From: a virus
Length of the DNA stretch: 32,607 bases
Virus record (IMG/VR): IMGVR_UViG_3300008108_000219
Location: 1-32,607 of that record
Direction: 5' to 3' (one strand)
Of this stretch, positions 1,411 through 32,607 are shown in pieces. The notes beneath the pieces are model-generated. The model worked only from the letters and a program-made list of their open reading frames with translations. It had not been told where the DNA came from and made no database searches. Position 1 is the stretch's first letter; each line of letters opens with the position of its first letter. The translations under genes were made by a program, and so were the position numbers.

Positions 1411-1604
1411 TTAAGAATTTTGTGGAGAAAACCACACAAAAGATGGATTCTTAATAATTGTTAAAGTTGGCTCTGGAGTCTCTGTAGGAGTTGGTGTTAA
1501 AGTTGGCTCTGGAGTCTCTGTAGGAGTTGGTGTTAAAGTTGGCTCTGGAGTCTCTGTAGGAGTTGGTGTTAATACGAGATTGTATGTTGACTCACTAGAG
1601 AGTT
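1411..1604 (-). other. Pro/Thr repeat extension in the -1 frame of the membrane protein gene
   Basis: Downstream of a nine-A run, the -1 frame is open for about 64 codons to a TAA at 1411-1413. It encodes a short linker, three copies of the 12-residue unit TPTPTETPEPTL, and an ending with IIKNPSFVWFSPQNS. The zero frame of the upstream gene stops at 1569-1571. No good independent start codon precedes this frame. It is therefore either reached by -1 frameshifting at A AAA AAC or is the broken 3' end of the gene. The same kind of PT repeat occurs in two other proteins in this window. Confidence 0.55.
1460..1567 (-). repeat. Three identical 36-bp tandem repeats encoding a PT-rich unit
   Basis: Three perfect copies at 1460-1495, 1496-1531 and 1532-1567, head to tail with no spacers. 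Read on the minus strand they encode a 12-residue unit of Thr, Pro, Glu and Leu. Perfect identity suggests recent expansion. Confidence 0.9.
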
Positions 1605-2339
1605 TTTTTTTAAAGCTATATTAAAAGCAATTAATAATGTTACTGCTAATGGATCGAATACGCAGATTAAAATGCAAATAAACGAAATTACAACCGTATC
1701 TAAAGGTTTATTAATAACATTTGCTACAAACTTAAATGTTCCTATATCTTTTACGTGAGCTGTTTGTTTATTTAATTCAATCAATTCGCTGTCTTTTTTA
1801 AACTTTTCTGTTTGTAATGATTGATTGCGTTCTGTTAATTTCTGTATCTCTTGATTGGCTTTTTCTATTGCTGCATAAGCTTGTTCTCTTGGAGCTTTAT
1901 AATTTCCAGCTTCTTGTACGCGTTGTTCTTGAGCTGCTCTTAGTTGATTTAAAGTTTCAATGCGTTTGTTGTTCTGCTGAACTTCTTGCTCAAATGTATT
2001 TTTTTGCGATTCTATAACAGATACTTGTTGATCCAATTGAGAAAACTTTGATGAATTGATTTGATATGCTGCAGACAGATATCCAAATACACCAACTGAA
2101 GTTACAGCCATTAGTACAATAATAGCCACTAATAAATATGTGCGAATAAGCCAAGATGTGGTACTCCAGTATCTATATAAAAATGAAGTTGCTACTACTT
2201 TGCCTAATTCTAAAGCTGATGCCATTGTAGCTACTTGTATAAAGCTTCCTGAAAATAAAGTAGCTATACCAATTACTGAAAAATACGCTCCGCATATTGC
2301 AACGAAGAATGCTGTGAATCCAAGTATAATTGTAAACAT
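1569..2339 (-). CDS. Four-helix membrane protein with periplasmic/cytoplasmic coiled coil
   Basis: About 256 residues from the ATG at 2337-2339. A longer GTG start at 2414 is possible, but a GATAAGTA late-promoter-like box lies seven bases before this ATG. Hydrophobic helices lie near the N-terminus (TIILGFTAFFVAICGAYFSV), around residues 30-50 with the conserved-looking ASALELGK, around 65-90 (LLVAIIVLMAVTSVGVFGYL) and near the C-terminus (VVISFICILICVFDPLAV). Between helices three and four is a long Gln/Glu/Lys coiled coil of about 110 residues. Similar proteins occur in marine T4-like phages, as I recall, without a known function. The zero frame ends with ALKKN at an A9 run, after which the -1 frame carries a PT-rich tail. 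Confidence 0.7.
   Translation of the reverse strand: MFTIILGFTAFFVAICGAYFSVIGIATLFSGSFIQVATMASALELGKVVATSFLYRYWSTTSWLIRTYLLVAIIVLMAVTSVGVFGYLSAAYQINSSKFSQLDQQVSVIESQKNTFEQEVQQNNKRIETLNQLRAAQEQRVQEAGNYKAPREQAYAAIEKANQEIQKLTERNQSLQTEKFKKDSELIELNKQTAHVKDIGTFKFVANVINKPLDTVVISFICILICVFDPLAVTLLIAFNIALKKNSLVSQHTISY
1602..1611 (-). other. Candidate -1 slippery site (A AAA AAC in an A9 run)
   Basis: On the minus strand the codons are GCT TTA AAA AAA AAC TCT, which contains the canonical X XXY YYZ heptamer A AAA AAC. Slipping back one base moves the ribosome into the open -1 frame with the PT repeats. Nine A residues are also a classic place for a sequencing or assembly indel, so both readings stay open. 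Confidence 0.45.
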
Positions 2340-2346
2340 ACTACTA

Positions 2347-2354
2347 TACTTATC
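2347..2354 (-). promoter_or_regulatory. Late-promoter-like box (GATAAGTA)
   Basis: One mismatch from NATAAATA, seven bases upstream of the ATG at 2339. It supports that start over the upstream GTG. Confidence 0.4.
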
Positions 2355-2424
2355 AAAAATGGTGATTTTAACCCTGTAAATATGCAGCGATTGCAGTAGT
2401 GCTGCTTGGCACACTGGTATTTAA

Positions 2425-4116
2425 TTAGCTTTCTTTTCGGTCTGTTAGATTATAATGTTCGAAGCGATTGTGTTCGATTGGAGAAAGCAATAATATGCCT
2501 GGATATAATGTATTGTTTTTGGTTAACTGAAACATATGAGACATCCACGTTTGTTCAAAGGGATGACCCCATTTGGTATCTAAAAACATTTTTTTATTGC
2601 CATTTTTTGATACAATTTGTGGCCAGTTGCAATAATAAATTTCGCCTGTAGCGTATGCTAATCCATCTATGCTTTGTATATTTTTAAATTCTGTTAAAGG
2701 TGAGTGCGGATCCAAACCTTGTTCTGGAAGTTTGCAGTAGTTGGGCCAAAACTCTTCTCTCTTAGCTTGAGGAACATTATACCAAGACCATTGTTTAGAA
2801 TTGTTGCCAAAAAATTCGGTAAAACAAAATTTTAAAAAGTCGAATCCTTCTTGAGACATAATCTTCATAATTTTTAAATAAAGATTATCTAGGTATCTAT
2901 TAAACCCGTTTTTACATATTTCTCCTTTATGCGGGTAAAAGAACATATCATCTTCAAAAAACATCATGTATTCTAACGAGAGAGAATCAAAATGTTCCGC
3001 AATAAATTGCCTTCCTCCGCAGATTCCTAAATTGTCTTTTTTAATGTGTTCGAACCCATGTTTGCGACAAAGTTCTTCGTATATTGGAGTGGTTGTTAAA
3101 TCTGTAGAATTATTTAACAAAAATTTAGTTGTTTTGTCTAAAAATCTAGAGTCGTAAGCCTCCATAGACTCTATTAACGTTTCGAATTGTTTTGGACTAT
3201 TAAACGTCAACACATATAAAGCGCATTGATCCGTATATGGTTTAGATTTGTTAACGATATGATTAGAGGGATGGATAATCGTTTCGTGTTTTAGTTGAAG
3301 TCTATCGTTTTTTATATTTTCAAAAAACTTTCCCATTAAACCATTTGGGTCAATTTCTGCATATTGAAATAGCTCCGGATATTTGTACACCATTAATGTG
3401 AAAACAGATTCTTCTGTTCCCATAAGTCCTTTATCTAACGTAGACTTCAATAAGTCATAATAGATTGAATTAGCTTGTTGAATTGTTTCTTTTGGTCCTC
3501 CGAAAAAACCACCTCTTGCTACTTTATTGGTCTTAGTTCGAGCTAGCTTGCAAAGTTCAGCATAATTAAATCCATGCACTTCTGTATTGGCTTCATATAG
3601 AAAACATACAAAAGAAAAATGCGTATATAAAGAAGAAAGTTTATCTATTACTTTATCGTGAGTAAAATAGCCAGGATGGATAGTATTAGTAATGCCAGCG
3701 TCAATCCAAAATAAATGTGAAGAATTAAATTGGTCTAAAATTTTTGCATCATTTAACAAAAACATTTTGGACATAACTAGTGGGTTGTACATTTCCAAAC
3801 GAGCTTGTGCTGATTCTGACAACCATCCCGTTCGACTCGACCAAGAAGAATCTGTTCTTATTTTTTGAATAGTATCAAAAAATTCGTTGCACTTAAACCA
3901 CTCTACGGATCTTTCAATAAATTGTGTGTTTTCTTGTTTGCGATTTTTAAAAACGAAATCTTTTAATTCAGGATCTCCAAATATAATTAAATTATTATTA
4001 ACAGCAAGTAGTTGAGCAAGTTTGTCTAAATAATGTTGATATGAACGAGACCAACCTTCCGTTAAAGTTTCTCGATTTATATTCCAAAGACCAGTGACTA
4101 ATGTGGAAGAATTCAT
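2425..4116 (-). CDS. Fusion of HtrL/YibB-like protein and GT-A glycosyltransferase
   Basis: 563 residues in two parts. Residues ~5-265 resemble the HtrL/YibB (WlaTC) family: LVTGLWNINRE at the start, a FWIDAG segment near 136-141 and GGFFGGPKET near 202-211. Residues ~298-540 look like a GT-A transferase: a Rossmann-like ALYVLTFNSPKQ start, an LGICGGRQ segment near 363-370 and a DxD-like FFEDDM at 386-391, where a metal-nucleotide-sugar would bind. HtrL-family proteins are found in polysaccharide/LPS gene clusters and are thought to be GT-like. The gene is the last of a six-gene operon and ends four or five bases from its neighbour. Donor and acceptor sugars cannot be told from the sequence. 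Confidence 0.75.
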   Translation of the reverse strand: MNSSTLVTGLWNINRETLTEGWSRSYQHYLDKLAQLLAVNNNLIIFGDPELKDFVFKNRKQENTQFIERSVEWFKCNEFFDTIQKIRTDSSWSSRTGWLSESAQARLEMYNPLVMSKMFLLNDAKILDQFNSSHLFWIDAGITNTIHPGYFTHDKVIDKLSSLYTHFSFVCFLYEANTEVHGFNYAELCKLARTKTNKVARGGFFGGPKETIQQANSIYYDLLKSTLDKGLMGTEESVFTLMVYKYPELFQYAEIDPNGLMGKFFENIKNDRLQLKHETIIHPSNHIVNKSKPYTDQCALYVLTFNSPKQFETLIESMEAYDSRFLDKTTKFLLNNSTDLTTTPIYEELCRKHGFEHIKKDNLGICGGRQFIAEHFDSLSLEYMMFFEDDMFFYPHKGEICKNGFNRYLDNLYLKIMKIMSQEGFDFLKFCFTEFFGNNSKQWSWYNVPQAKREEFWPNYCKLPEQGLDPHSPLTEFKNIQSIDGLAYATGEIYYCNWPQIVSKNGNKKMFLDTKWGHPFEQTWMSHMFQLTKNNTLYPGILLLSPIEHNRFEHYNLTDRKES

Positions 4117-4120
4117 TTTA

Positions 4121-5008
4121 TTATTTTAATAAATTATTAATTTTTTTTAGCAAATTAAACTGGTTAAAATATTTTTCTTTAATTTTTAATAAGTTTGGTA
4201 TCAGTTCGTCGTATAATTTTTCACAATTATTAAAAACATAATTTAATTGTTTAATTACAGTATCTGTGTCGTCAATATTATCAATTAAAATATAGCCGTC
4301 TTCTGGTAGAAATTCTTTGATATTTTTGCAACCAAAATAAATTGGTATTGTATTAGTTAATACGCAATCATAAAACTTTTCGCTAATATAATTTTTTTCG
4401 TTTGAGTTTTCTATGCATATTGAAAATCTATAATCTATTAATCCGTCTTTTTTAAGATTAAGGTCTTTATTATTCCAACCAAACACATCAACAAACTCGC
4501 AATTATCAATTATAGTTTTAATTAAATTTGCTCTTTTTTTGTAAATGCATCCGCTTGGGTACTCTCTATTGTCATTTCCTAAAGAAGAAACAATCGAAGA
4601 AATTAATTTGTTTTTTCTAAAAGCAAAATTAATCAAATTATTATAATTCCAAAAATTTCTTTCTCTTAGATTACCAGTGCCTCCATAAAACAAATGCGCA
4701 GGAGTTTCTATTACTTTATTAGGAGAATCGTAAATATTTTTTTCGTATCCAAAAACGGTTAAATTTTCATATTGCTTGAAAGCTTTTTGATGGTTTCCGC
4801 TCCAAGTTGGCTCATGAAAGAATATATACGCCTTTGAATTTTTTTTAGGTTCCTCTGTTATATAATTATTAAATACGATAATATCATATGAACCGTCATA
4901 AACGAATTCGACGTCGCTTCCGTCTTTTTCGCTAGTTTTAAATTGCTCTAGTAATCTTTCTGTTATATTTTCGGAAGTATCCCAACCTGCACAGATTTTA
5001 ATTTTCAT
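4121..5008 (-). CDS. GT10-family fucosyltransferase (alpha-1,3/4-fucosyltransferase-like)
   Basis: About 295 residues from the ATG at 5006-5008. An ATG five codons earlier (5023) overlaps the upstream gene more and lies before the natural beta-strand start MKIKICAGW. The key signature is in the C-terminal half: YRFSICIENSNEKNYISEKF, then TNTIPIYFGC. This is the GDP-fucose-binding motif of GT10 enzymes, which transfer fucose from GDP-Fuc to GlcNAc or Glc residues, mostly in alpha-1,3 linkage. Length is close to bacterial GT10 catalytic domains. The start overlaps the end of the upstream GT/methyltransferase gene by 11 bases, which suggests coupled translation. No membrane anchor is seen, so it is probably cytoplasmic in the infected cell. 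Confidence 0.85.
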   Translation of the reverse strand: MKIKICAGWDTSENITERLLEQFKTSEKDGSDVEFVYDGSYDIIVFNNYITEEPKKNSKAYIFFHEPTWSGNHQKAFKQYENLTVFGYEKNIYDSPNKVIETPAHLFYGGTGNLRERNFWNYNNLINFAFRKNKLISSIVSSLGNDNREYPSGCIYKKRANLIKTIIDNCEFVDVFGWNNKDLNLKKDGLIDYRFSICIENSNEKNYISEKFYDCVLTNTIPIYFGCKNIKEFLPEDGYILIDNIDDTDTVIKQLNYVFNNCEKLYDELIPNLLKIKEKYFNQFNLLKKINNLLK

Positions 5009-6488
5009 GCCGAATAATATCACGCTTAATAGCTATCATGTCCTCTCTTTGGTGTTTAGAATGTTCCCAATAATCGATTACATCATATCCATTATCATTC
5101 AACACATTTTTTATATGCATTCTTGATGGAATCTTTACGGTTTTACCATCTGATATTTCTAAATTGTGGTCTTCTTTACACCACCAACATGTCTCAAAAA
5201 ATAATACGTTGGGTTTTAATTGAGTTACCAAATCCAAAATAATTAAATGATCAATACTCTCTGCATCACAAAAGAAAAAATCAAGTTCGTCTATTTTTTC
5301 TTCAATTAAGAAATCAATAATTGTAATAGTATCAACTATAATTTGAGAGGATATGCGATCTTTGTTAAAACTTCCAAAAGATGCACCTTGATTGTTCTGA
5401 TCATTTGATAATACGTTTATAATATTATTTTCTCTTAGCACTTCAGGTAATATCGCTTTTTTGACGAATTTTGCATTTTTAAAATTTATTTTATTTTGTT
5501 TCATGATTTCAAAAGTGCTTTCAATCGGTTCTATGAAATAACCAATATCGCTTTCTTTTAGAAACTCATTTGCTATATCGTGGGTTTTTCCGTCGTTAAC
5601 TCCAATTTGTACAAACGAGATTGCTTCTTTTTTTAAACAAAGTCTCGACAAGTTTAATAAATCTAATGGCTTACAATCCTCAAATGCGTATTTGTGCTTA
5701 CTTTTAGTAGAAACTGATTTTAGTGAATTGTTGTTTGCAGTATTATCTGTAAACTTATTGCCGTTGAATTTAAACCCCAATATACTGTGCCACATGCTAT
5801 GTGTAATTTCAATTGATTTGTGAAATCCTGCATACCTTGCTGATATCCCAATTTCAAACCCATCTCCCCAACTCCCGCCCTCGCCGCGTATAGATTGTAG
5901 ATGGTCGTTAAGTTCTTTCCACCTCTCATAAAATTTTTTAATTTTACTTACATCGTTTTTAAAAATTAAAAAGTGTTCGCTCGGTAAAAGCGATAACATA
6001 ATATCATCATTATCGCTATAATTTTGTAAAATTTTATATGAATTTATCTTGTGAGAAAATAAAGTTTTACCGGTTCTCTTATATTCATTTACGCTATCAA
6101 TCATTGAACAATTCAGTCTCGTTGCTCCAAAATCATATTTTTTAAAAATAGATTCAATGTGTTCATCCGAGTTGCTATTCCATCCATCAAGCTTTATGTC
6201 GCAATCCAGATATATTATTATATCATAATCATTTGGTATGTGTTCAAACGCCTTGTATTTGAGATTATAATTAAATTCTGAACCGTATGTTAATATACAG
6301 GACGGATCAATGTTGTCTCTTATAAAAAATCTATTGGAAGAAATATCGTCAAAAAAATTTATTTTATTAGTAGACATCAATACATCGTGTTTAGTTTGAG
6401 TTAATATTTCTTTCACTAATCTTTTTGCAGATTCCAGATACATTTTGTTGCCAGAATCTATTGACAATAAAGTAAATAAAACTTTCAT
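4998..6488 (-). CDS. Fusion of GT-A glycosyltransferase and FkbM-family methyltransferase
   Basis: 496 residues, two domains. Residues ~1-245 are GT-A-like: a beta-strand start (MKVLFTLLSID), then DYDIIIYLDCDIK at 88-99 with the DxD motif, and an acceptor-side stretch with GGSWGDGFE. Residues ~288-490 match FkbM methyltransferases: FVQIGVNDGKTHD as the SAM-binding glycine loop, YFIEP, and LDFFFCDAES near 400. FkbM enzymes usually methylate sugar hydroxyls, so the gene could add a sugar and cap it with an O-methyl group. It abuts the GT4 gene by one base upstream and overlaps the fucosyltransferase downstream. The substrate is unknown. Confidence 0.8.
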   Translation of the reverse strand: MKVLFTLLSIDSGNKMYLESAKRLVKEILTQTKHDVLMSTNKINFFDDISSNRFFIRDNIDPSCILTYGSEFNYNLKYKAFEHIPNDYDIIIYLDCDIKLDGWNSNSDEHIESIFKKYDFGATRLNCSMIDSVNEYKRTGKTLFSHKINSYKILQNYSDNDDIMLSLLPSEHFLIFKNDVSKIKKFYERWKELNDHLQSIRGEGGSWGDGFEIGISARYAGFHKSIEITHSMWHSILGFKFNGNKFTDNTANNNSLKSVSTKSKHKYAFEDCKPLDLLNLSRLCLKKEAISFVQIGVNDGKTHDIANEFLKESDIGYFIEPIESTFEIMKQNKINFKNAKFVKKAILPEVLRENNIINVLSNDQNNQGASFGSFNKDRISSQIIVDTITIIDFLIEEKIDELDFFFCDAESIDHLIILDLVTQLKPNVLFFETCWWCKEDHNLEISDGKTVKIPSRMHIKNVLNDNGYDVIDYWEHSKHQREDMIAIKRDIIRHEN

Positions 6489-6489
6489 G

Positions 6490-7446
6490 TTAATTTAAAA
6501 AATTTTTATCAAACCTTTCCATTATTTTTTCTGGAGTATGGTTTTCATATGCTTTATAATAATCATTATGTTTTATATACGTTTTGAGATTGTTTAAAAT
6601 ATCGTAAAGCTCATCGTATGTATTATATATGATTGCTCGTTCTCCTAATATATCTAAATGAGATCTTTCTCCTGATAATCCATAAGTAACAACAGGTTTG
6701 TTCATTGCTGAAAATTCTGCAACAGATAAGCCAAATGTTTCTCCTCCGCTTCGAGCGTGTAACATAGCATCACACGCGTTTATAAACAACGATTTTTCAT
6801 GAAGATCCCATGTTCCTGGAAGATGTATAACATTCGGGTTATCTTCCATGAATTTATTTATATTCATAAAAATAAAAAAAACATCAGAGCGTTTTTTTAA
6901 AATATTTCGAATTGCTTCGTGAGCGTCTCGATGATTAAACTCAGTAGCTCCCCCTAAATATCCAAACACTGTTTTATCTTTCGAAATACCTATCCTTTCC
7001 CTTAAGCAGCCATTAGGCTCAGGCAATTTTTTGACCATATGAGGTATAGAATGTGTATTTGGATTGTATCCTTGATCTTTTGCAAGCCAATCCGAAACAA
7101 AACAATATTTATAGCCATGTGGCTCATTACTTCTAAAAACTACGTGGATTAAACAAGGAATGGAGTCCAAGCAAAGACCGTCCGACTTTCCTCCAGATTT
7201 TATAATATATAGATAATCTACTCCTAATTTAGAAAGAGACTGTTGATATTCATAAAAATGCATCAGAATAACATTTTCTCCGAAACGGTTCTTGAATTTC
7301 TCTAGAGAATCTAAATTGCCGTGTAGAGAACTTACAATTATGCTTTTATTTCCTAATATTTTTTCGTTGTAATCGGCATAATCATACATCGCATTAGTCG
7401 TGCCCCGTAAACAAAGATTATTATCGTGAAACGCGATCGTTTTCAT
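6490..7446 (-). CDS. GT4-family glycosyltransferase (GT-B fold)
   Basis: 318 residues. The N-terminal half is a Rossmann-like acceptor domain beginning MKTIAFHDNN. The C-terminal half has VFGYLGGATEFNHRD near 160-175 and the donor-binding signature ARSGGETFGLSVAEFSA near 232-247. This carries the E-x7-E arrangement typical of retaining GT4/GT1 enzymes. It is somewhat short for the family, with a compact N-domain. It abuts its neighbours by 0-1 bases, so it is clearly part of the operon. An internal TATAAATA lies in its coding sequence on the same strand but looks like chance. Donor sugar unknown. Confidence 0.8.
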   Translation of the reverse strand: MKTIAFHDNNLCLRGTTNAMYDYADYNEKILGNKSIIVSSLHGNLDSLEKFKNRFGENVILMHFYEYQQSLSKLGVDYLYIIKSGGKSDGLCLDSIPCLIHVVFRSNEPHGYKYCFVSDWLAKDQGYNPNTHSIPHMVKKLPEPNGCLRERIGISKDKTVFGYLGGATEFNHRDAHEAIRNILKKRSDVFFIFMNINKFMEDNPNVIHLPGTWDLHEKSLFINACDAMLHARSGGETFGLSVAEFSAMNKPVVTYGLSGERSHLDILGERAIIYNTYDELYDILNNLKTYIKHNDYYKAYENHTPEKIMERFDKNFLN

Positions 7447-8388
7447 TTAGATATTTAATAGAGATAGAGTATGTTTCACTCTATTTTGTCTTGAAAGGTA
7501 TCTTTCGTAAAATTCTCTTGCGTTTTTTGAAATAAAAGTTAAAAACTCTTTATCTTCCTTCACTTCAAGAAATCTTTGTTCTAAAAGCTCGGCATGCTCT
7601 CGGTTACCCAATCTGTCTATTGCCAAATTATATGGTCTATCTAAAGCTACATAATGATAATTAGGAATTAATTTGGGATTCAATTCGGTTGTATAATTAA
7701 ATCTCAACATGGGTATTCCTAGCGCCATATATTCGATGTCCCTATAACACAGTTCTCCTCTACCAGCAATTGATAATCCAACTTTGTAATTAATCAAATC
7801 TTCAAAGTACGAGTTCGGTCCACCTATTGGTGTATATCCATCTAAATATTTGGAACTTATATGCGTTACGATAGGTCTGTCATCTATCGATGTACCTCTA
7901 AAATACATTTTATCGATATATTCTTCTATCGATTTTCGTTTTTTATGAAAAAACTCCAGATCATCGACAGTACATGGAAAGTAAATCCAGGGTGAATATT
8001 TTTCCATATAAGTTAATGAAACATGATCCTGCAATTTCCTTCTATCGAATTGTGAAACTAGTACTTTTTTTAAATGTGGATTTTCGCGTTCATTCAAAAT
8101 AGCATGCGACAAATCATCAGAAACCGAAAGAATATAAAAATCGCCAGTATCTTCAAATTCAATTACATACTCGCATTCCATTAATAGAAAACAATGTTCT
8201 CCACAAGTTTGCTTTCTTAACCTAACTTCAAACCTTGATTGATTGGCAAACTCATAATATCTATTTTCAGTAACGATATATTGTGTCTTTAGCTCTTCTG
8301 TCAGCTCGTCCCAAAACAAATTATAATCCCGATAATATCTAGTATATTCATTGCATGGGTTATGAACAACGATTCTTGTCGGGTTCAT
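7447..8388 (-). CDS. Putative GT-B glycosyltransferase (exostosin/GT47- or GT90-like C-terminus)
   Basis: 313 residues. No clear family signature in the N-terminal half, which is rich in Tyr, Arg and Glu. The C-terminal segment YKVGLSIAGRGELCYRDIEY followed by MALGIPMLRF resembles the donor-binding region of GT-B proteins. In these a conserved Gly-Arg/Glu stretch precedes a helix and a (G/I)P(M/V) turn, as in exostosin-type and GT90 enzymes. The C-terminus is a helical bundle of ~50 residues. It lies between two firm glycosyltransferases with zero-base spacing on both sides, which strongly supports a role in the same glycan pathway. Confidence 0.6.
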   Translation of the reverse strand: MNPTRIVVHNPCNEYTRYYRDYNLFWDELTEELKTQYIVTENRYYEFANQSRFEVRLRKQTCGEHCFLLMECEYVIEFEDTGDFYILSVSDDLSHAILNERENPHLKKVLVSQFDRRKLQDHVSLTYMEKYSPWIYFPCTVDDLEFFHKKRKSIEEYIDKMYFRGTSIDDRPIVTHISSKYLDGYTPIGGPNSYFEDLINYKVGLSIAGRGELCYRDIEYMALGIPMLRFNYTTELNPKLIPNYHYVALDRPYNLAIDRLGNREHAELLEQRFLEVKEDKEFLTFISKNAREFYERYLSRQNRVKHTLSLLNI

Positions 8389-9627
8389 CTATAAGTTCCC
8401 TGTTACTCTTTCTCCCCAGCCTTTTGATTCAGAGTGAGGCCATACGACCCAATACTTTGGCTTGGTTTCACAATTAAACTCTCTCCAAATTTTACAATAT
8501 TTGTCTGGATCGCTTAACATTCTTTGTATTTCATCCTTATCAACATCTTTTCTATATATGGTCTCATCTCGTTCATCATGAAATGCTACTACCCAAAAAT
8601 CGTAATCTTTTTCGGGAATTTGTTCGTACCTTATATCAATGCAATGCTTAAAAATTCTTAAAAATGATTTTTCATATTCTTCAGAAGAAGTATATTGTGG
8701 ATTTGGTGGCAACATGTTGTCTAAAGTATACTTTTGAATGGCTCTTTTTTTAAAAGATATCCCAGAATACTTTTCATAATCTTCTAGCGTTCTTTGAGTT
8801 CCAAATCCATAAGGACCAAAGTCTATATCTCGTTTCTCACCATCCATCTCAAACAATTTTCTGTTTCTTAAATGAGATTTATTATTTTTATTACCCCAGT
8901 CTTTATCATCGTCCCAATGTTTAGTCCTACCTTTTCGTGTGTATTCGTGCCATGCTAAAATTTTGTGAGGATGAAACAAATCATACCCCCATGTATAAGC
9001 ACGAACAGCTATAGAGATTTCTTCTCCGTGAAAGTACAGCTCAGGATCGTGAGGAACTTCTTTACAAAAAATTCCATCAGTAAAACAAAAATGAGCAGAA
9101 TAGAATCTAGAGGGAATTGGTTCTGTTCTTTCTTGAAAGTCATCTATAGAAGCTGGCAGAAAAAACACAGCTCCTTCAGGTATAAAACGATCAAAATTCA
9201 TTTTCCATGGAATATTAACCCTGCCTGATGGGTCGTTATCAGGATCATAACTAGGTATATATCCAGTAAGTAAAGGTTTTTTATATCCTTTGCTTTTAAG
9301 ATCTTCCAACATATTAATAGCTAATTCATCCCAATGCTTAACAAATCTGTGATGGCTGTCTATTTGTAAAGTATATGTCTCGTCATCATAAAATTGTTGA
9401 ATTTTATTTCTGGCCCAACATGCTCCTTTAGATTCTTTATAAGGAACAGCAATAATTTTAAATCGAGAATCGTTCTTATATTCGTCTATGTTTTCATCAG
9501 AACCGTGTTGCCAACAAATACAAAAACGTAAATTTTCTGGATGCTTAGCATTTAAGATACAATCTTTTAATGTGTTACTAAGTTCAGGATCTCTATAAGA
9601 AGCTATTTGAATGAATATCGTGGACAT
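8389..9627 (-). CDS. PF11397-type GlcNAc transferase (Skp1 Gnt1-like GT-A)
   Basis: 412 residues from the ATG at 9625-9627, chosen because the strand-forming MSTIFIQIASYRDPEL is the usual family start. The longer ATG at 9648 would overlap the preceding gene. Diagnostic features in order are IASYRDPEL, LRFCICWQH (34-41), KGACWARN (67-74), the DxD-equivalent LQIDSHHRF (88-95), FTDGIFC, the HGEE box (200-203) and AWHEY (225-229). The family was defined by the Dictyostelium Skp1 enzyme, which transfers GlcNAc from UDP-GlcNAc to a hydroxyproline of a cytoplasmic protein. Bacterial and phage members are mostly uncharacterised. It is the first gene of the sugar operon and so may start the glycan on its acceptor; that order is inference. 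Confidence 0.8.
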   Translation of the reverse strand: MSTIFIQIASYRDPELSNTLKDCILNAKHPENLRFCICWQHGSDENIDEYKNDSRFKIIAVPYKESKGACWARNKIQQFYDDETYTLQIDSHHRFVKHWDELAINMLEDLKSKGYKKPLLTGYIPSYDPDNDPSGRVNIPWKMNFDRFIPEGAVFFLPASIDDFQERTEPIPSRFYSAHFCFTDGIFCKEVPHDPELYFHGEEISIAVRAYTWGYDLFHPHKILAWHEYTRKGRTKHWDDDKDWGNKNNKSHLRNRKLFEMDGEKRDIDFGPYGFGTQRTLEDYEKYSGISFKKRAIQKYTLDNMLPPNPQYTSSEEYEKSFLRIFKHCIDIRYEQIPEKDYDFWVVAFHDERDETIYRKDVDKDEIQRMLSDPDKYCKIWREFNCETKPKYWVVWPHSESKGWGERVTGNL

Positions 9628-9635
9628 AAAAAACA

Positions 9636-9896
9636 TCAAGCAACCCAATCGACCGTTTTAATATCAGTTACGTCAAAGTATATTGCATGACCTATAGAAT
9701 TATTTTCGTTGATTAAAAATCCTCTTAATTTTCTCGGTGTAGTCGAATATGGAGTTACTCTTTCGATTATTTCTTCTTTTGTAACATAATACTCTTTATT
9801 TTCGAACTGTTTTTGAATTGCTTTTCTTAAAAATTCTTGCAAATCTCCTTTGCCTACTTGATCCTGATGGACGTGATAATATGTTGGTTGTGACAT
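9636..9896 (-). CDS. Small unknown protein
   Basis: About 86 residues from the ATG at 9894-9896; an in-frame GTG six codons earlier is the alternative. The sequence starts MSQPTYYHVHQDQ and continues with a charged helix (EEIIERVTPYS) and a beta-like end (AIYFDVTDIKTVDWVA). No family recognised. It ends eight bases before the start of the GlcNAc-transferase gene, so it may be the leader gene of the sugar operon. Whether it takes part in glycosylation is unknown. Confidence 0.6.
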   Translation of the reverse strand: MSQPTYYHVHQDQVGKGDLQEFLRKAIQKQFENKEYYVTKEEIIERVTPYSTTPRKLRGFLINENNSIGHAIYFDVTDIKTVDWVA

Positions 9897-9940
9897 TTCT
9901 TTAATTATCACCAACTTCTGTTGTTTTGCAACAATTTATT

Positions 9941-11898: not shown

Positions 11899-11956
11899 AG
11901 TAAACTATTACGTCATGTAGATATTGAAAAATATCGAATGTCATTTAAATAATAAT

Positions 11957-13855
11957 ATGATTTATAGACCCTATACCAATAATGCTGGGGTACCTGGAAG
12001 CTCAACAGCTTCAGTAAAGCCTCAACCGTACCCTCAAACATCGTTATTGGGAGCTTTTGTGTCTAGATTGCCTTATGCGTATCAAATCATAGATACGATG
12101 GTAAAAAACAATCCAAAGTTCTACGATTTTAAAAATCAGACTTCTAAAAAAGAAGAAATGCTTCAAGATCAATCTGTTTTTTTAAATCAAGGTCAGCAGC
12201 TAGACAATTATAGTAATGGCACACCTGGATCTTTTGCTATTAATAAAGACTATCAAGCGTTTGTTTATGCTAATATCGATAAAGACAAACAAAGACGTCT
12301 GTCAGATTATAGAAGAATGGCCGCATATGCAGAATTAGCTGATTGTTTGGATGAAATATGCGATGAGTGTATTGTAGTTGATGATAAAGGAGAAATTGTA
12401 AAATTTCAAGTCAGAGGAGCTTATAGTAAAAATATACAAGATTCATTAAAAAAAGAATTTGATAATTTTATTCAAATCTATGATTTAGAACATACGGGAT
12501 GGGAAAAGTTTAGACAACTACTAGTTGAAGGAGAATTGTTTTTTGAAAATTTAATAAAAGACAAACGAGAAGAATTAGGAATCATTGGATTAATTTCAAT
12601 ACCGTCTGAACTAATAAATCCTGTATATCACAACGTTCAAAACGAAATTATTAAAGGATATTTATTGCGAAAACCGATTGTCGGTCCAACTCAATCGATT
12701 AATACAGAAGACCAAGAAGAATTACTCTTTTTACAAAAAGCACAAGTTAGTTATATCAATTCAGGTTGTTGGAATGAGTTCAAAACAATGAGAATTCCGT
12801 TCATTGAAAACTCTAAACGTGCTTACAGACAATTGAGTCTAATCGAAGATTCTGTTGTAATATACAGATTAGTTCGAGCTCCAGAAAGATTAGTGTTTAA
12901 AGTGTATACAGGAAACATGCCTCCACCAAAAGCTGAATCTTATATTAAAAGTTTAATGATGAAGTATTGGTCTAAAAAGACTTATAATGGAGCAGAAGGT
13001 AAAACTGCAAATGTTTATGATCCTCAATCTATGCTGGATTCTTATTGGTTTCCTGTTGATGCTCAAGGACATGGTACGGATGTTAATCCATTAACTACTT
13101 CTACAAATCTTGGAGAAATAAAAGATTTAGATTACTTTTTAACCAAATTATACAAAAGTTTAAAAGTTCCTATTTCTAGATTCATGACTCCTGGAGATCC
13201 TTTTAAAGATGGAACTGAAATTACAAGAGATGAATTGAGATTTGCTAGATTTATTATTCGAATTCAATCGCAATTTGCTATAGGAATTAAACAAGCGTTT
13301 ATTACTCATTTAAAACTAAAAGGGTTATGGAAAGAATATAGGCTAAAAGAACAATCAATTAAAATTAAGTTTAACGAACCTACATCGTTCATGACGATGA
13401 GAAATCAGCAATTGTTAAGCTTGAGATTTGAAAATTATAATGCTGCTACTCAAGGAGATGCAATTTCGAAATCCTACGCTCAAAAGTATTATCTTGACCT
13501 GACTGCTGAACTAATGACTGAAAATCGTGAATGGTTAAGAAAAGATGCGGCCCTTAGATGGGAACTCAGTCAAATTGAACAAATGGGCCCTAACTTTAGA
13601 GAGCAATTAGCTGCTCAACAAGGAGAAGGTGGTGCAGCTCCAATTGAAGGAGAGGAAATGTCTTCTCCTGACGTTGGTGGAGGTGGAGGAGGAGGTTCTC
13701 CAGGAGCATCAGAAATTCCAGAATTTGGCTCAGGAGGAGCAGAAACAACTCCTGAAGCAAGTGAACTCTCTTCTCCAGAAGGAGGTACTGGAATTGGATC
13801 TGAACCTCCTCTAGCAGCTCCGGAAGGTGGAGGAGAACCTTCTCCTTCAGTATAA
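11957..13855 (+). CDS. 20: Portal vertex protein, T4 gp20-like
   Basis: 632 residues from the ATG at 11957; an in-frame TTG at 11924 would add eleven. Twelve copies form the ring through which DNA enters and leaves the head and to which the neck attaches. The gp20 landmarks are all present: DYRRMAAYAELADCLDEICDE near residues 115-135, the LEHTGWEKFRQLLVEGELFF segment, the strongly conserved DSVVIYRLVRAPERLVFKVY near 296-315, GNMPPPKAESYIK, then LGEIKDLDYFLTKLYKSLKVPISR. T4 gp20 is 524 residues. The extra length is mostly a C-terminal tail of ~85 residues rich in Gly, Pro, Glu and Ser with a GGGGGGG-like run. The next gene, gp13-like, also belongs to the neck. Confidence 0.95.
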   Translation: MIYRPYTNNAGVPGSSTASVKPQPYPQTSLLGAFVSRLPYAYQIIDTMVKNNPKFYDFKNQTSKKEEMLQDQSVFLNQGQQLDNYSNGTPGSFAINKDYQAFVYANIDKDKQRRLSDYRRMAAYAELADCLDEICDECIVVDDKGEIVKFQVRGAYSKNIQDSLKKEFDNFIQIYDLEHTGWEKFRQLLVEGELFFENLIKDKREELGIIGLISIPSELINPVYHNVQNEIIKGYLLRKPIVGPTQSINTEDQEELLFLQKAQVSYINSGCWNEFKTMRIPFIENSKRAYRQLSLIEDSVVIYRLVRAPERLVFKVYTGNMPPPKAESYIKSLMMKYWSKKTYNGAEGKTANVYDPQSMLDSYWFPVDAQGHGTDVNPLTTSTNLGEIKDLDYFLTKLYKSLKVPISRFMTPGDPFKDGTEITRDELRFARFIIRIQSQFAIGIKQAFITHLKLKGLWKEYRLKEQSIKIKFNEPTSFMTMRNQQLLSLRFENYNAATQGDAISKSYAQKYYLDLTAELMTENREWLRKDAALRWELSQIEQMGPNFREQLAAQQGEGGAAPIEGEEMSSPDVGGGGGGGSPGASEIPEFGSGGAETTPEASELSSPEGGTGIGSEPPLAAPEGGGEPSPSV

Positions 13856-13906: not shown

Positions 13907-14779
13907 ATGCCAGAACCTCAGCCAGTAATACCTGTTGGGTATAAGGGAGGAACGAATTTCAATCCCTCGATAACGACTTATGAAGAGCTTTCTATACGTT
14001 TACAACGTCAGCTTGGAGCTCCTCTAATTAATTTAGAAATTTCTGATGAACAAGTGTATGATTGTATTACCGATGCAATTGAATATTTTACAAAGTGGGC
14101 TGGTTATACAGAAGAATATTTAATTTTTAGTTCAAAACTATATACTCGCGGTTTTGGAATAAAAATTGAGGCATTAGTTAATAATACTCCAGAGCTAAAT
14201 CAAAGCAATACTCCAAGTCTTTCATCATCTTATGATTATGATTTAGCCAGTTATAGAAAAGTTATTGATTGTTTTGAGTTTTCTAAAGGAGAAGACACAG
14301 GAATAAATACTTTATTTACTCTTGAACAAGCAATGGCTCAGCAAGTTTATTCCAGTTATATGCTTGGTAATTTCGGTTTTGATTTAGTAACTTGGGAAGT
14401 TCTTAAAGGGTTTATAGACACTAGAAATAAAGTTCTAGCAATGACACCACATTTTAGGTTTGATGCTAGAGAACAATTATTAAAAATAATTCCGGAACCT
14501 ACCGAAAATCACACTTATATGGGAATAGTTGGTTGTTATATTGAGCGACCTATAAAGCATTTAATTAGTGAACGTTATGTTCAAAAATTAGCTTTAGCTA
14601 AAATGAAAATTGCTATTGCTAGAGTAAGAGAAAAATATACAGGAACAAATTTGTTTGGTGGAGGGTCCGTTAATAGTCAGAGTCTATTGTCAGAAGGTAT
14701 TGCTGAGGTAGAAAAATATGAACAAGAAATTAGAGAATCTTATATAGATAATACTCCACCAACCTTTTTTATAGGATAA
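13907..14779 (+). CDS. 13: Neck protein, T4 gp13-like
   Basis: 290 residues, close to T4 gp13 (309). The N-terminal pattern TTYEELSIRLQRQLGAPLINLEISDEQVYDCITDAIEYFTKW is in the style of the gp13 family in marine T4-like phages. There, a short helix, a G-x-P-(L/V)-I turn and a DEQ…DAI(E/Q)FF helix recur. The C-terminal ERYVQKLALAKMKIAIARVREKY, followed by a Gly-rich loop and a last EVEKYEQEIRES helix, also fits. gp13 joins gp14 on the portal to complete the neck and block DNA leakage. Position directly after the portal gene supports this. No gp14 is seen in the window. Confidence 0.7.
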   Translation: MPEPQPVIPVGYKGGTNFNPSITTYEELSIRLQRQLGAPLINLEISDEQVYDCITDAIEYFTKWAGYTEEYLIFSSKLYTRGFGIKIEALVNNTPELNQSNTPSLSSSYDYDLASYRKVIDCFEFSKGEDTGINTLFTLEQAMAQQVYSSYMLGNFGFDLVTWEVLKGFIDTRNKVLAMTPHFRFDAREQLLKIIPEPTENHTYMGIVGCYIERPIKHLISERYVQKLALAKMKIAIARVREKYTGTNLFGGGSVNSQSLLSEGIAEVEKYEQEIRESYIDNTPPTFFIG

Positions 14780-15126: not shown

Positions 15127-15789
15127 ATGAAAAAAATAATCAGCTTTTCATTGTTTGGAACAAATCCAAAATACAATGTTGGAATTATATGTAATGTAGA
15201 AATAGCAAAAGTTGTTTTTCCTGATTGGATTTGCAGAGTTTATATTGGAGATAGTGTTCCATTAAACACCATAACTCAACTTAAAACTTATAATAATTGC
15301 GAGTTGATTTTTGTTCAAGAAAACAACAAAAACATGAGTTACATGTGGCGATTTTTATCGATAGATGAATGTGATATTGCTCTATCTAGAGATGCTGACT
15401 CGAGACTTTCATTTCGAGAGAAATTTTTAGTTGATGAGTTTGTTTCGTCAGAGTGTTTATTTCATGATGTTCGTGATCACCAAAATCACGTTGGTATCAT
15501 GGCTGGTATGTGGGGAATTAAAAAAAACGATCGGATTTGTATAAAAGAAGCAATTAATGAATTTTTGAATACACATAATTATTACGGATCTGATCAAACT
15601 TTTCTTCGTTTAGTGATCGCTCCACTATTTAAAGATTGTACTTTACTACACGACTTAAACTCTACTCCTTCTTTGCATTCTAACAATATCTTATCCACCT
15701 CATATAATCGTGGGCCATGCAAACATTTTATTGGCGAAGTATTTCCTCCCGAAAATTATAACGCACCGTTAGATCATATATTTTACTAA
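15127..15789 (+). CDS. Putative GT-A-like glycosyltransferase
   Basis: 220 residues. It starts with a strand (MKKIISFSLFG) and contains MWRFLSIDECDIALSRDADSRLS. The DADS serves as a DxD motif near residues 90-95, preceded by a helix. HDVRDHQNHVGIMAGMWGIK and YYGSDQTFLR follow. This pattern occurs in uncharacterised GT-A-like proteins often found near sugar clusters. It stands alone among head/neck genes, about 5.5 kb from the glycosyltransferase island and on the other strand. Probably a further member of the glycan system or an independent small acquired gene. Confidence 0.6.
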   Translation: MKKIISFSLFGTNPKYNVGIICNVEIAKVVFPDWICRVYIGDSVPLNTITQLKTYNNCELIFVQENNKNMSYMWRFLSIDECDIALSRDADSRLSFREKFLVDEFVSSECLFHDVRDHQNHVGIMAGMWGIKKNDRICIKEAINEFLNTHNYYGSDQTFLRLVIAPLFKDCTLLHDLNSTPSLHSNNILSTSYNRGPCKHFIGEVFPPENYNAPLDHIFY

Positions 15790-17365: not shown

Positions 17366-18823
17366 TTAGCATCCACATTTTTTATTAGTTGGAGTTGGTG
17401 TTGGACTACAACGTATGGTTGGTGTTGGAGAAGGAGGACATCTTGGAGTTTCAAATATTGGAGTGGTTGGAGTTGGAGTTGGTGTCGGTAGAGGAGTACA
17501 TTGTATAATAGTTGGATTTAACACTGCATCTTTAGAATAGAAGTTAACTCTTCCCTCAGTAAAGACTCCAACAAACCTTGCACCTTCTACATTATCTCCT
17601 TGTAAGGTATATCCAAATTTCATTCCTAATCTACTTCTGTGGAAAATAATATCTGCTCTAACATTACCGTTTACGAAAACATACATCACCACTCTGTTAG
17701 ACGAAGATTCGTACCCCGTACCATCAGTATAATATAAAGTATCTTTATAGAGCGAATCAAGATAAACTACACTTCTTTCATCTGCTTCACAACCCGTCAA
17801 ACAATATATAAGCTCTTTTGGTGCAGGTGTTGAGGTCGGTGTTGGTGTGATAAACACTACAGGAGATGTTGTTGGAGTAGGCGTAACTGTAGGTGTAACT
17901 GTAGGTGTAACCGTAGGTGTAACTGTAGGCGTTGGAGTAGGAGTAGGAGTGCCTCTAAATGAAATGCATGGTTCTCTTCTATCTATGATTGTCCGTTTAT
18001 ATAAGTTGTAAAGTTCTACGGCTTTTTGCTGGCTTATTCCTTTTAATACCGCTGCAAATGATATATGCTGTTCTGAGAAAAATGAATTTTCACCAAAAAC
18101 ATTAGAATTAATACCTCCAACATACATATTTCTATTAGGAGTCTTGTCTACACTTGGATATGGAGCTGGAGCTTGTTTTGTGTTAACTTCTAAATTTATT
18201 CCATTTTTATGTATAAAAGCGTTGTTTGTTTCTGTTCGTGAGGCAATCCAAACGCCTGGTGAACCACTAACGCTAGTAGTGTAGGTTATGTACTCGTAAG
18301 AACTTGAAAATGCTACTGGGTTTAATTCACTAATATCTAAAGATAGTTTAGACGTATGACTTTGATATGCTCCAAAAGAACCAAATTCTGAAGTTAATGG
18401 TCTGTAATGAGGATCTATTACTTCCAACATTAGTGTTACGTCTGTAGGAATTATACCGACAGATAATGGATTAAAAGATGTGTCGATATAACTGATATTG
18501 CTACCACTAAATTTAACTCCACACAAGTTCCATTCGGAATTAAACCCACTTAAATCATAGTATCCTATTTTTTCATTCTCGTTATACCCACACGGGTGCT
18601 TTTGATGCCCTAGCCCTCCTAAGGAGTATCCAGAAGAATTTATTCCTAGATTTTTATCAGTTGTTAAAAACCAGCAAGCTATATCATTCCATAAATTTAA
18701 ATCATAAAGTCCTTCAATAAATTTAAAGACAGATCTTCTATCTTTATTTTCTTCAGTTAAAGAAGATATTCTATTAAAATATTCTTGAGTTTTTAAGAAT
18801 GAAATGTTTGATGTAATGAACAT
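17366..18823 (-). CDS. Virion surface protein: LamG-like domain, PT linkers and Cys-rich tail
   Basis: 485 residues. Residues ~1-290 are beta-rich and resemble a LamG/concanavalin-like domain of phage fibres. The ending YVGGIN…FFSEQHISFAAVLKGIS…AVELYNLYKRTI is typical of such proteins. A first PT linker (about 294-340) is followed by a ~95-residue domain whose core (MYVFVNGNVRADIIFHRSR and onward to FTEGRVNF) aligns without gaps to the 124-residue protein at 30957. The last ~45 residues are Pro/Thr with five Cys (ending KKCGC), perhaps cross-linking. The three-gene fibre run on this strand suggests one appendage. Thr-rich linkers are candidate glycosylation sites. Confidence 0.7.
   Translation of the reverse strand: MFITSNISFLKTQEYFNRISSLTEENKDRRSVFKFIEGLYDLNLWNDIACWFLTTDKNLGINSSGYSLGGLGHQKHPCGYNENEKIGYYDLSGFNSEWNLCGVKFSGSNISYIDTSFNPLSVGIIPTDVTLMLEVIDPHYRPLTSEFGSFGAYQSHTSKLSLDISELNPVAFSSSYEYITYTTSVSGSPGVWIASRTETNNAFIHKNGINLEVNTKQAPAPYPSVDKTPNRNMYVGGINSNVFGENSFFSEQHISFAAVLKGISQQKAVELYNLYKRTIIDRREPCISFRGTPTPTPTPTVTPTVTPTVTPTVTPTPTTSPVVFITPTPTSTPAPKELIYCLTGCEADERSVVYLDSLYKDTLYYTDGTGYESSSNRVVMYVFVNGNVRADIIFHRSRLGMKFGYTLQGDNVEGARFVGVFTEGRVNFYSKDAVLNPTIIQCTPLPTPTPTPTTPIFETPRCPPSPTPTIRCSPTPTPTNKKCGC
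17860..17965 (-). repeat. PT-coding repeats in the LamG/PT-linker gene
   Basis: On the minus strand this encodes a run of [16 protein letters not shown] type, built from near-identical 12-base units (ACTGTAGGTGTA on the plus strand). The pattern matches the linkers at 1411 and 31985. Confidence 0.75.
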
Positions 18824-20037: not shown

Positions 20038-20214
20038 TTAATCGAACCAGGTTTTAAAAACGGATAAATCAAATTCTTCTAATTTCTCAATTAATAATTC
20101 AACCGCGGCTTCACATTCTTTTGGGGAATTAAGACTACTAGCTAAAAGATCTACTATGTTGTTTTCTATTAAATCTTCAACTATTGCTTCTATTTCATTA
20201 TTCTTACTATGCAT
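20038..20214 (-). CDS. Small acidic unknown protein
   Basis: About 58 residues from the ATG at 20212-20214. A longer frame begins at 20247, but the GATAAATA late promoter lies inside that extra part, so the shorter form is preferred. The protein is helical and acidic (NNEIEAIVEDLIEN… and EAAVELLIEKLEEFDLSVFKTWFD). No family recognised. It is divergent from the Gly-rich structural gene and lies 13 bases before the long fibre gene. Confidence 0.6.
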   Translation of the reverse strand: MHSKNNEIEAIVEDLIENNIVDLLASSLNSPKECEAAVELLIEKLEEFDLSVFKTWFD

Positions 20215-20227
20215 GATAAAGTATTGG

Positions 20228-20235
20228 TATTTATC
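20228..20235 (-). promoter_or_regulatory. Late promoter (GATAAATA), minus strand
   Basis: NATAAATA read on the minus strand, 13 bases before the ATG at 20214. It lies nine bases from an opposite-facing CATAAATA, so the two are back to back. Confidence 0.6.
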
Positions 20236-20244
20236 TACTTCGTG

Positions 20245-20252
20245 CATAAATA
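20245..20252 (+). promoter_or_regulatory. Late promoter (CATAAATA) of the Gly-rich structural gene
   Basis: NATAAATA, eight bases upstream of the ATG at 20261. Confidence 0.6.
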
Positions 20253-20260
20253 AATTTTGT

Positions 20261-31348: not shown

Positions 31349-31756
31349 ATGCCAGATAGAAAAATTTCACAATTAAACAGTGCTCCTAATGTCGATTATG
31401 AAGATGTGATTCCGATCGTTCATAATGGAACTACTTACAATACCACTGTTGATCGTCTTGTGAATACTGGTAGTAGAAAAATTTTAAAAAATGAAAGTTT
31501 TGATGCAGATGGTAGAAAAACATATCTAGTTAATACTGCTGTGTATGCTGTTACAGCAACTTTACCTCAAACTCCAACGATTGGGGATTATGTATCTTTT
31601 GCAGATCCGTACCTTACATGGAATTTTAACCACTTTACGATAAATAACAATACGAATATGATACATGGTCACCTAGAGCCGTTAGTTTGCAATGTAGTGG
31701 GTTTGACTTTTACATTAACCTATGTTGGTGGAACTTTAGGATGGAGGGTTGACTAA
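31349..31756 (+). CDS. Fibre/baseplate-associated protein (KISQL-type N-terminus)
   Basis: 135 residues. The N-terminus ([35 protein letters not shown]) is a widespread phage fibre or baseplate attachment pattern: K(I/L)SQLP-A-x-x-(D/E)x-D-(V/F)-(I/F)P-V-(V/I)…GTT…(T/V)-x-x-L. The C-terminal half is beta-rich ([47 protein letters not shown]). It overlaps the next gene by one base (TAATG). It probably forms a fibre base or short virion fibre. Confidence 0.7.
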
Positions 31757-32607
31757 TGTTATTTTCTAATCTATTTCAACCTTTGTCTGTTACTATTAAT
31801 AATAACATTCCCGAGGCTTGCTGTGATGGAGAAACTACTCCAGAATTAAAAACTGATATACTTGTTCGTAATCCTTTAGGTCTTTATCATTATGGAGAAA
31901 TTATACCTCCAGGTACTAAGCTAGAAACAATTCTAAGAAATATTTTAAGCGAAGAATGTAGAGATTGTTGTTGTGAAGAAGTTACTCCTACTCCTACTCC
32001 TACAGAATCTCCTACTCCAACTGTTACCCCTACTCCAACTGTTACACCTACTCCAACTGTAACTCCTACTAATACAGTTACTCCTACTCCTACAACGACT
32101 GTTACACCTACTCCAACTGTAACTCCTACTAATGCTGTAACTCCTACTCCTACAACGACTGTTACACCTACTCCAACCGTAACTCCTACTAATACAGTTA
32201 CTCCAACTGTTACACAGACTCCTACTAATACGGTTACACCTACTCCAACTGTAACTCCTACTAATACTGTAACTCCTACTCCTACAACGACTGTTACACC
32301 TACTCCAACCGTAACTCCTACTAATACACCTACTAATACAGTAACACCGACTCCTACAAAGACTGTAACTCCTACTCCTACTAATACACCAACTGTAACA
32401 CCAACTAGTACAGTAACACCGACTCCTACAAAGACTGTTACACCCACTCCAACTATAACACCAACTAATACGGTAACTCCTACTAATACACCGACTAATA
32501 CGGTAACTCCTACTCCTACAAAGACTGTGACACCTACTCCTACTGTGACTCCTTCTACTACTCCTCCTGCTGTGATTCCTGTAAGTTCTTATTGGATTGT
32601 TGCTGAT
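31756..32607 (+). CDS. PT-repeat virion protein (3' partial)
   Basis: Open from the ATG at 31756 to the end of the window (284 codons), so the C-terminus is missing. The first ~75 residues are a globular part ([38 protein letters not shown], and a Cys cluster in [10 protein letters not shown]). The rest is ~195 residues of Thr/Pro/Val/Asn repeats such as [20 protein letters not shown]. The DNA is tandemly repetitive with a clear 60-base period, and opposite-strand frames over it are shadows. A short ordinary stretch ([12 protein letters not shown]) begins before the window ends. Likely a long, flexible and perhaps glycosylated surface protein. Confidence 0.75.
31985..32570 (+). repeat. Tandem PT-coding repeats with 60-bp period
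   Basis: Lines beginning near 32041, 32101 and 32161 are almost identical in 60-base steps, with shorter 18- to 30-base sub-repeats elsewhere. The copies differ by few substitutions, so the array is likely to vary in length between relatives. Confidence 0.85.

Follow-up and report, generated by a model that had tools for sequence, protein, structure and literature searches.

The six-gene cassette and its families

A stretch of 32,607 bases from a T4-like phage of an environmental metagenome (IMG/VR viral record IMGVR_UViG_3300008108_000219; hereafter, the window) contains six open reading frames (ORFs) packed end to end on the minus strand between positions 2425 and 9627. They code for putative glycosyltransferases (GTs), one of them fused to a methyltransferase, and are given here in the direction of transcription:

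8389..9627, minus strand: GT60-type (PF11397) protein O-glycosyltransferase, 412 aa (PF11397 6.2e-73; phrog_24687 4.6e-184); proposed initiating enzyme and 5' bookend of the cassette
7447..8388, minus strand: predicted GT-B fold glycosyltransferase without a sequence family, 313 aa (AlphaFold2 (AF2) model, predicted local distance difference test (pLDDT) 95, and Foldseek)
6490..7446, minus strand: GT4-like glycosyltransferase, 318 aa (phrog_2170 glycosyltransferase, 1.2e-7)
4998..6488, minus strand: N-terminal GT-A-like domain (DCD motif) fused to an FkbM methyltransferase, 496 aa (PF05050 2.9e-6, residues 294-435)
4121..5023, minus strand: GT10 family fucosyltransferase-like protein, 300 aa (PF00852 4.2e-15); the ATG form starts at 5008
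2425..4116, minus strand: fusion of an HtrL/YibB domain with a C-terminal GT-A domain, 563 aa (PF09612 (HtrL_YibB) 7.8e-21); 3' bookend

The initial annotation had described these six minus-strand genes, with junctions of 0-11 bases, as a glycan-building island inside a T4-like late region, and most of that description was upheld. The junctions measure 0, 0, 1, -26 and 4 bases, and they agree with the earlier figure if the GT10 gene begins at its internal ATG, which leaves an overlap of 11. Hidden Markov model searches of the ORFs recovered HtrL_YibB, GT10, FkbM and PF11397 in Pfam. The GT4 assignment was backed by PHROG, whereas the match to Pfam Glycos_transf_1 was weak (1.9e-4) and under the Pfam cut-off. 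The GT-B-like protein had no family match in Pfam, PHROG or NCBIfam, but its model matched GT-B enzymes: Foldseek placed nearest POGLUT1/Rumi, a protein O-glucosyltransferase (E 1.6e-6, TMq 0.49), followed by GT4 enzymes and SdgB, the Ser-Asp-repeat glycosyltransferase. The GT-A half of the FkbM fusion was assigned solely by its DCD motif. The GT10 protein gave tblastn matches in cyanophages, and a PDB sequence search with the HtrL fusion returned nothing useful. None of the six enzymes contains a transmembrane segment.

A multi-enzyme cassette in a structural region was likewise supported, the T4-like context consisting of portal gp20, a head-tail adaptor, an S74-chaperone tail-fibre end and PhoH. 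The direct neighbours, however, are small genes without known function and a membrane protein, not the fibre genes between which the island had been placed; the portal lies 2.3 kb off. The count of six also overlooked a seventh gene:

15127..15789, plus strand: stray GT-A gene (DAD motif), 220 aa

Homologues of this gene were located within or beside the GT60 cassettes of three viral loci (L074, L106 and L115; 29-46% identity) and, on the opposite strand, of a fourth (L116), and judged by these matches it belongs to the same gene pool as the cassette. Sigma-70-like promoters (60 in the window against 58.9 expected) and the T4 late-promoter TATAAATA (7 against 5.25) occurred at chance level, with none at the start of the operon.

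The GT60 enzyme and the bookended cassette in viral loci

The GT60 enzyme scored 246.7 bits against PF11397, whose cut-off is 21, and its DSH motif (DxH; D90, H92) was invariant in 50 GT60 relatives. Its AF2 model, predicted from an alignment of window proteins and proteins of the fetched loci, reached a pLDDT of 93.9, and Foldseek ranks 1-41 in the PDB were all mucin-type polypeptide N-acetylgalactosaminyltransferases (ppGalNAc-T), with a best E of 2.9e-11. GT60 includes Skp1 Gnt1, which transfers alpha-GlcNAc onto hydroxyproline, and a Trypanosoma cruzi polypeptide alpha-GlcNAc-transferase (PMC6939170). GT60 is thus a protein O-GlcNAc-transferase family, of whose members a UDP-GlcNAc donor and a polypeptide acceptor would be expected. 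In a search confined to PF13640 among 2-oxoglutarate families, a prolyl hydroxylase was over cut-off in 5 of 29 GT60-positive records and in neither of the isolates XacN1 and RAS14. Given this scarcity, Thr or Ser would be a likelier acceptor residue than hydroxyproline, and a Skp1-type route appears less likely.

A set of 138 viral loci was gathered by relationship to the GT60, GT-B and portal proteins. GT60 came first and the HtrL fusion last, unbroken on one strand, in 63 of the 87 distinct GT60-led viral loci, with 1-10 variable genes between these two bookends. The genes in between formed 65 clusters and included FkbM and other methyltransferases, GT10, GT11, GT25, a PLOD-like GT, a rhamnosyl-O-methyltransferase family, carbamoyltransferase, UDP-galactopyranose mutase, epimerases and a sulfotransferase. 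The exact six-gene order of the window, proposed as a check in related phages, was not found elsewhere. In L110 and L121, five of its six families are present in different arrangements, and the FkbM-related genes there are not of the fused GT-A and FkbM form. The pair of GT60 and HtrL fusion also occurs in bacterial contigs, e.g., of Saprospiraceae, Gemmatimonadota and Jiulongibacter sediminis. One viral lineage (L022, L023 and L024) has GT60 with neither cassette partners nor Thr-Pro repeats, and the GT60 acceptor there should differ.

The position of the cassette was compared among phages with related portals, using the following genes of the window:

1569..2414, minus strand: membrane coiled-coil protein (KD19 2.63), 3' edge of the slot
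9636..9914, minus strand: conserved small gene, 5' edge of the slot; adjoins GT60, or occupies the same place in portal relatives without GT60
11924..13855, plus strand: T4-like portal gp20 (PF07230 1.6e-96), lineage marker
13907..14779, plus strand: neck/head-tail adaptor (phrog_211 4e-21)

Between the membrane-protein gene and the small gene at 9636, these relatives have a GT60-led set or, in the case of L008, no such set; a homologue of the membrane protein borders this slot in L005, L008, L011, L016 and L017. The closest phage (L002) shares 87% identity in the portal and 94% in the neck protein with the window, but just 51% in GT60 and 46% in the HtrL fusion, and it has not one of the four middle genes. 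Conversely, records with a portal match of 23-32% have GT60 identities of about 50-65%. These comparisons show that the cassette is swapped between phages. The rank correlation between portal and GT60 identity (-0.04 over nine relatives) was dropped as evidence, that between portal and neck being weak as well (0.21).

Thr-Pro-rich proteins that accompany GT60

Two proteins of the window have mucin-like composition and are candidate acceptors:

17366..18823, minus strand: fibre-region protein with Thr-Pro-rich mucin-like stretches (PT content 0.75 over 40 residues), flanked by the S74 fibre end and a further fibre-like gene
31756..32607, plus strand: long protein of Thr-Pro repeats, truncated where the window stops (PT content 0.80 over 40 residues)

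Whole records were searched for a TPTxTPT-coding pattern, a reversed-pattern control being near zero. Such repeats were present in 53 of 61 GT60-positive records (10/11 and 43/50 in two sets) and in 8 of 79 GT60-negative ones (8/39 of mixed origin and 0/40 T4-like), with a pooled Fisher p of 4e-21 that ignores ancestry and habitat. The 40 T4-like controls were picked by a cyanophage NrdA and added since a random 16-mer control had returned mostly short contigs. After clustering of GT60s at 90% identity, 36 of 44 clusters were positive. In the reverse test, GT60 was found in 12 of 39 contigs chosen by a (TP)n repeat and in none of 53 random and T4-like controls. Among genes of 130 aa or more, the one next upstream of GT60 was PT-rich in 36 of 83 loci, compared with 65 of 1273 background genes. 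The association with Thr-Pro repeats also holds in XacN1 and RAS14, two isolates with portals that share about 30% identity with the window portal.

In three GT60-positive records (L005, L016 and L017), which look like one sublineage, the conserved neck protein carries a fused mucin-like domain at its N-terminus; no GT60-negative portal relative with a neck gene showed this fusion. In two of the three (L016:2655-3671 and L017:3191-4387), the homologue of the membrane coiled-coil protein that borders the slot ends in a Thr-Pro-rich C-terminal tail. This tailed protein is a further candidate acceptor, one that may reside in the infected cell's membrane. Thr-Pro-rich phage proteins were also observed with RCC1 repeats, laminin-G/concanavalin-like domains and proprotein-convertase P-domains (L033:5366-9931, L042:1124-5638 and L032:7541-9937).

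At five bacterial loci (L423, L425, L431, L449 and L451), from Sphingomonas (two loci), Eremiobacterota, Aerophototrophica and Novosphingobium, GT60 follows directly on a large protein that looks structural. These large proteins belong to one family, and the operons are related to extracellular contractile injection systems (eCIS). PT-rich linkers were seen in the large protein of both Sphingomonas loci (L423:4385-9266 and L425:4384-10477); the operon of L425 contains eCIS_core, a tape measure of the contractile injection type and two GT60 copies in tandem. The presence of GT60 beside injection machines without a phage genome speaks against DNA as its target. No description of glycosylation of eCIS-type machines was found.

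Two further features of the window were recorded. A partial protein at its left end (2-391) contains a passenger-associated-transport repeat of autotransporter type (PF12951 3.8e-7). A 703-aa protein at 20156-22267 has a long Gly-rich GGGGGLG repeat block, which accounts for a local GC peak (0.456) and a GC skew of 0.43 at 21-22 kb.

Proposed role, alternatives and related systems

These results favor the island being a mobile phage cassette that would glycosylate the virion proteins of its own phage by mucin-type O-glycosylation (probability about 0.62, on sequence comparisons and structure models). In this scheme, GT60 would act in the cytoplasm of the infected cell, most likely adding the first N-acetylhexosamine to Thr (or Ser) of Thr-Pro-rich stretches in particle proteins such as those of the fibre or neck. 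Chain extension and branching would then fall to the GT-B, GT4, GT-A and GT10 enzymes and the HtrL fusion, and O-methylation of the glycan possibly to FkbM. Shuffling and exchange of the middle genes between phages would render the glycan variable, and this variation probably changes the recognition, stability or adsorption of the particle.

Several observations weigh against this proposal. The window is a 32.6-kb fragment, and both of its Thr-Pro-rich proteins lie away from the cassette, at about 8 and 22 kb. TPTxTPT repeats were missing from 7 GT60-positive records in the set of 50, and from 1 in the set of 11, the L022-L024 lineage among them; many Thr-Pro-rich contigs (27 of the 39 selected by repeat) are without GT60 in their sequenced part; a PT-rich gene lies nearby in just 14 of 80 bacterial GT60 loci; and the large protein has little Thr-Pro in three of the five contractile-injection loci. 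The co-occurrence statistics take no account of ancestry and habitat, and the T4-like controls depend on a cyanophage NrdA query. Regarding the enzymes, Foldseek TM-scores for the GT60 model are about 0.5, PDB sequence searches with the protein and its profile found no GT60 relative, and the HtrL fusion shows, in its C-terminal GT-A domain, a weak resemblance to DNA-modifying GTs (beta-glucosyl-hydroxymethylcytosine-alpha-glucosyltransferase, phrog_842, 0.0038; a TET-associated GT, 0.0036, in a homologue).

Part of this evidence would fit a different account, in which the Thr-Pro segments are ordinary flexible linkers, their link with GT60 comes from an ancestry or habitat that large aquatic phages have in common, and the GTs use another protein or a small molecule as acceptor. 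The eight GT60-negative records with repeats, the repeat-selected contigs without GT60 and the neglect of phylogeny in the statistics all agree with it. Nevertheless, we regard it as doubtful, since PT-rich genes directly upstream of GT60 are far over background, the association survives clustering of the enzymes, and it extends to XacN1 and RAS14 with their distant portals.

Somewhat less probable still is that the enzymes remodel the lipopolysaccharide (LPS) or O-antigen of the host during infection, blocking superinfection or altering receptors. HtrL/YibB is tied to LPS loci in Escherichia coli; GT10, GT25, GT11 and FkbM, like nucleotide-sugar genes, are typical of O-antigen loci; and a membrane protein stands at the cassette edge. 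LPS is moreover the main published idea for the GTs of pelagimyophages (PMC7029224). Against such a role, the six enzymes are without membrane segments, family matches in the window and the cargo include no Gtr-type flippase or lipid-sugar initiator of the kind that a GtrABC-type O-antigen modification would involve, the gene at the head of the cassette belongs to a protein-acceptor family, and the cassette co-occurs with Thr-Pro-rich proteins and contractile-injection operons.

Glycosylation of modified bases in the phage DNA is very improbable: the weak resemblance of the HtrL-fusion C-terminus would fit it, but GT60, GT10 and the POGLUT1-like fold are not known as DNA-GT families, the hypervariable cassette travels with Thr-Pro-rich proteins, and GT60 also accompanies tail-like machines without a genome. 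Phages do employ GTs on modified DNA bases (PMC12619734).

Returning to virion glycosylation, a broader and more tentative proposal is that tailed phages and some phage-tail-like injection machines might run a mucin-type pathway of their own, in which a cytoplasmic GT60 starts chains on Thr-Pro domains and a swappable cassette diversifies them into a glycan-variable coat. If correct, this would provide a gene-level predictor of glycosylated phage particles and name as likely acceptors the Thr-Pro-rich proteins found in many viral contigs here and so far unexplained. Virion glycosylation would become testable in cultured isolates, and one enzyme family would tie together phage, contractile-injection and eukaryotic mucin-type glycosylation, with relevance to the recognition of phage particles by hosts, grazers and immune systems.

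Phage virion glycosylation (PMC12619734) and GT-rich islands in T4-like phages (PMC7029224; S-SM2) were known already, so that the presence of an extensive glycan island in such a phage is not new in itself, and the statement that phages usually carry one or two such genes was too strong. What is new, and most informative beyond the initial annotation, is the swapped cassette with its GT60 and HtrL-fusion bookends and its association with mucin-like Thr-Pro repeats; no earlier description of either was found in the literature searched (mucin-like phage proteins; GT60 in phages).

Like Skp1 Gnt1 and the T. cruzi enzyme, the window GT60 has a PF11397 domain well above cut-off and a DxH motif, its predicted fold being closest to mucin-type ppGalNAc-T (GT27); unlike them, it is phage-encoded, without a membrane anchor, 412 aa long and in an operon with extension enzymes. 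In mycobacteriophages, as summarized in PMC12619734 (citing Freeman et al. 2023), phage GTs decorate particle proteins, the glycans described there being on capsid and tail-tube subunits, whereas here Thr-Pro segments and a GT60 initiator are proposed. A link of GTs to structural genes or proteins is seen here too, in the PT-rich genes before GT60 and the neck fusion. The host recognition cluster of pelagimyophages is a comparable hypervariable GT-rich region with fibres inside a T4-like structural region, but it lies between VrlC and gp14, has GT8 as its commonest family and LPS as its proposed target (PMC7029224), whereas the window island is GT60-led and precedes the portal, VrlC not being identified in this fragment. 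The T4-like cyanophage S-SM2 (GU071095) also has GT10, GT11, GT25 and nucleotide-sugar genes, in an island larger than that of the window (GT10, two GT11 and GT25), in a genome without GT60 and without TPTxTPT repeats. The Xanthomonas phage XacN1 differs in being a jumbo phage whose GT60 (ORF334) adjoins a carbamoyltransferase, with no HtrL fusion annotated nearby and just two GTs listed by its authors (PMC5852040). ORF334 is nonetheless 49% identical to the window GT60, the Thr-Pro-rich ORF350 stands beside structural genes, and the proteomic account of this phage mentions "at least two glycoproteins" (PMC5852040).

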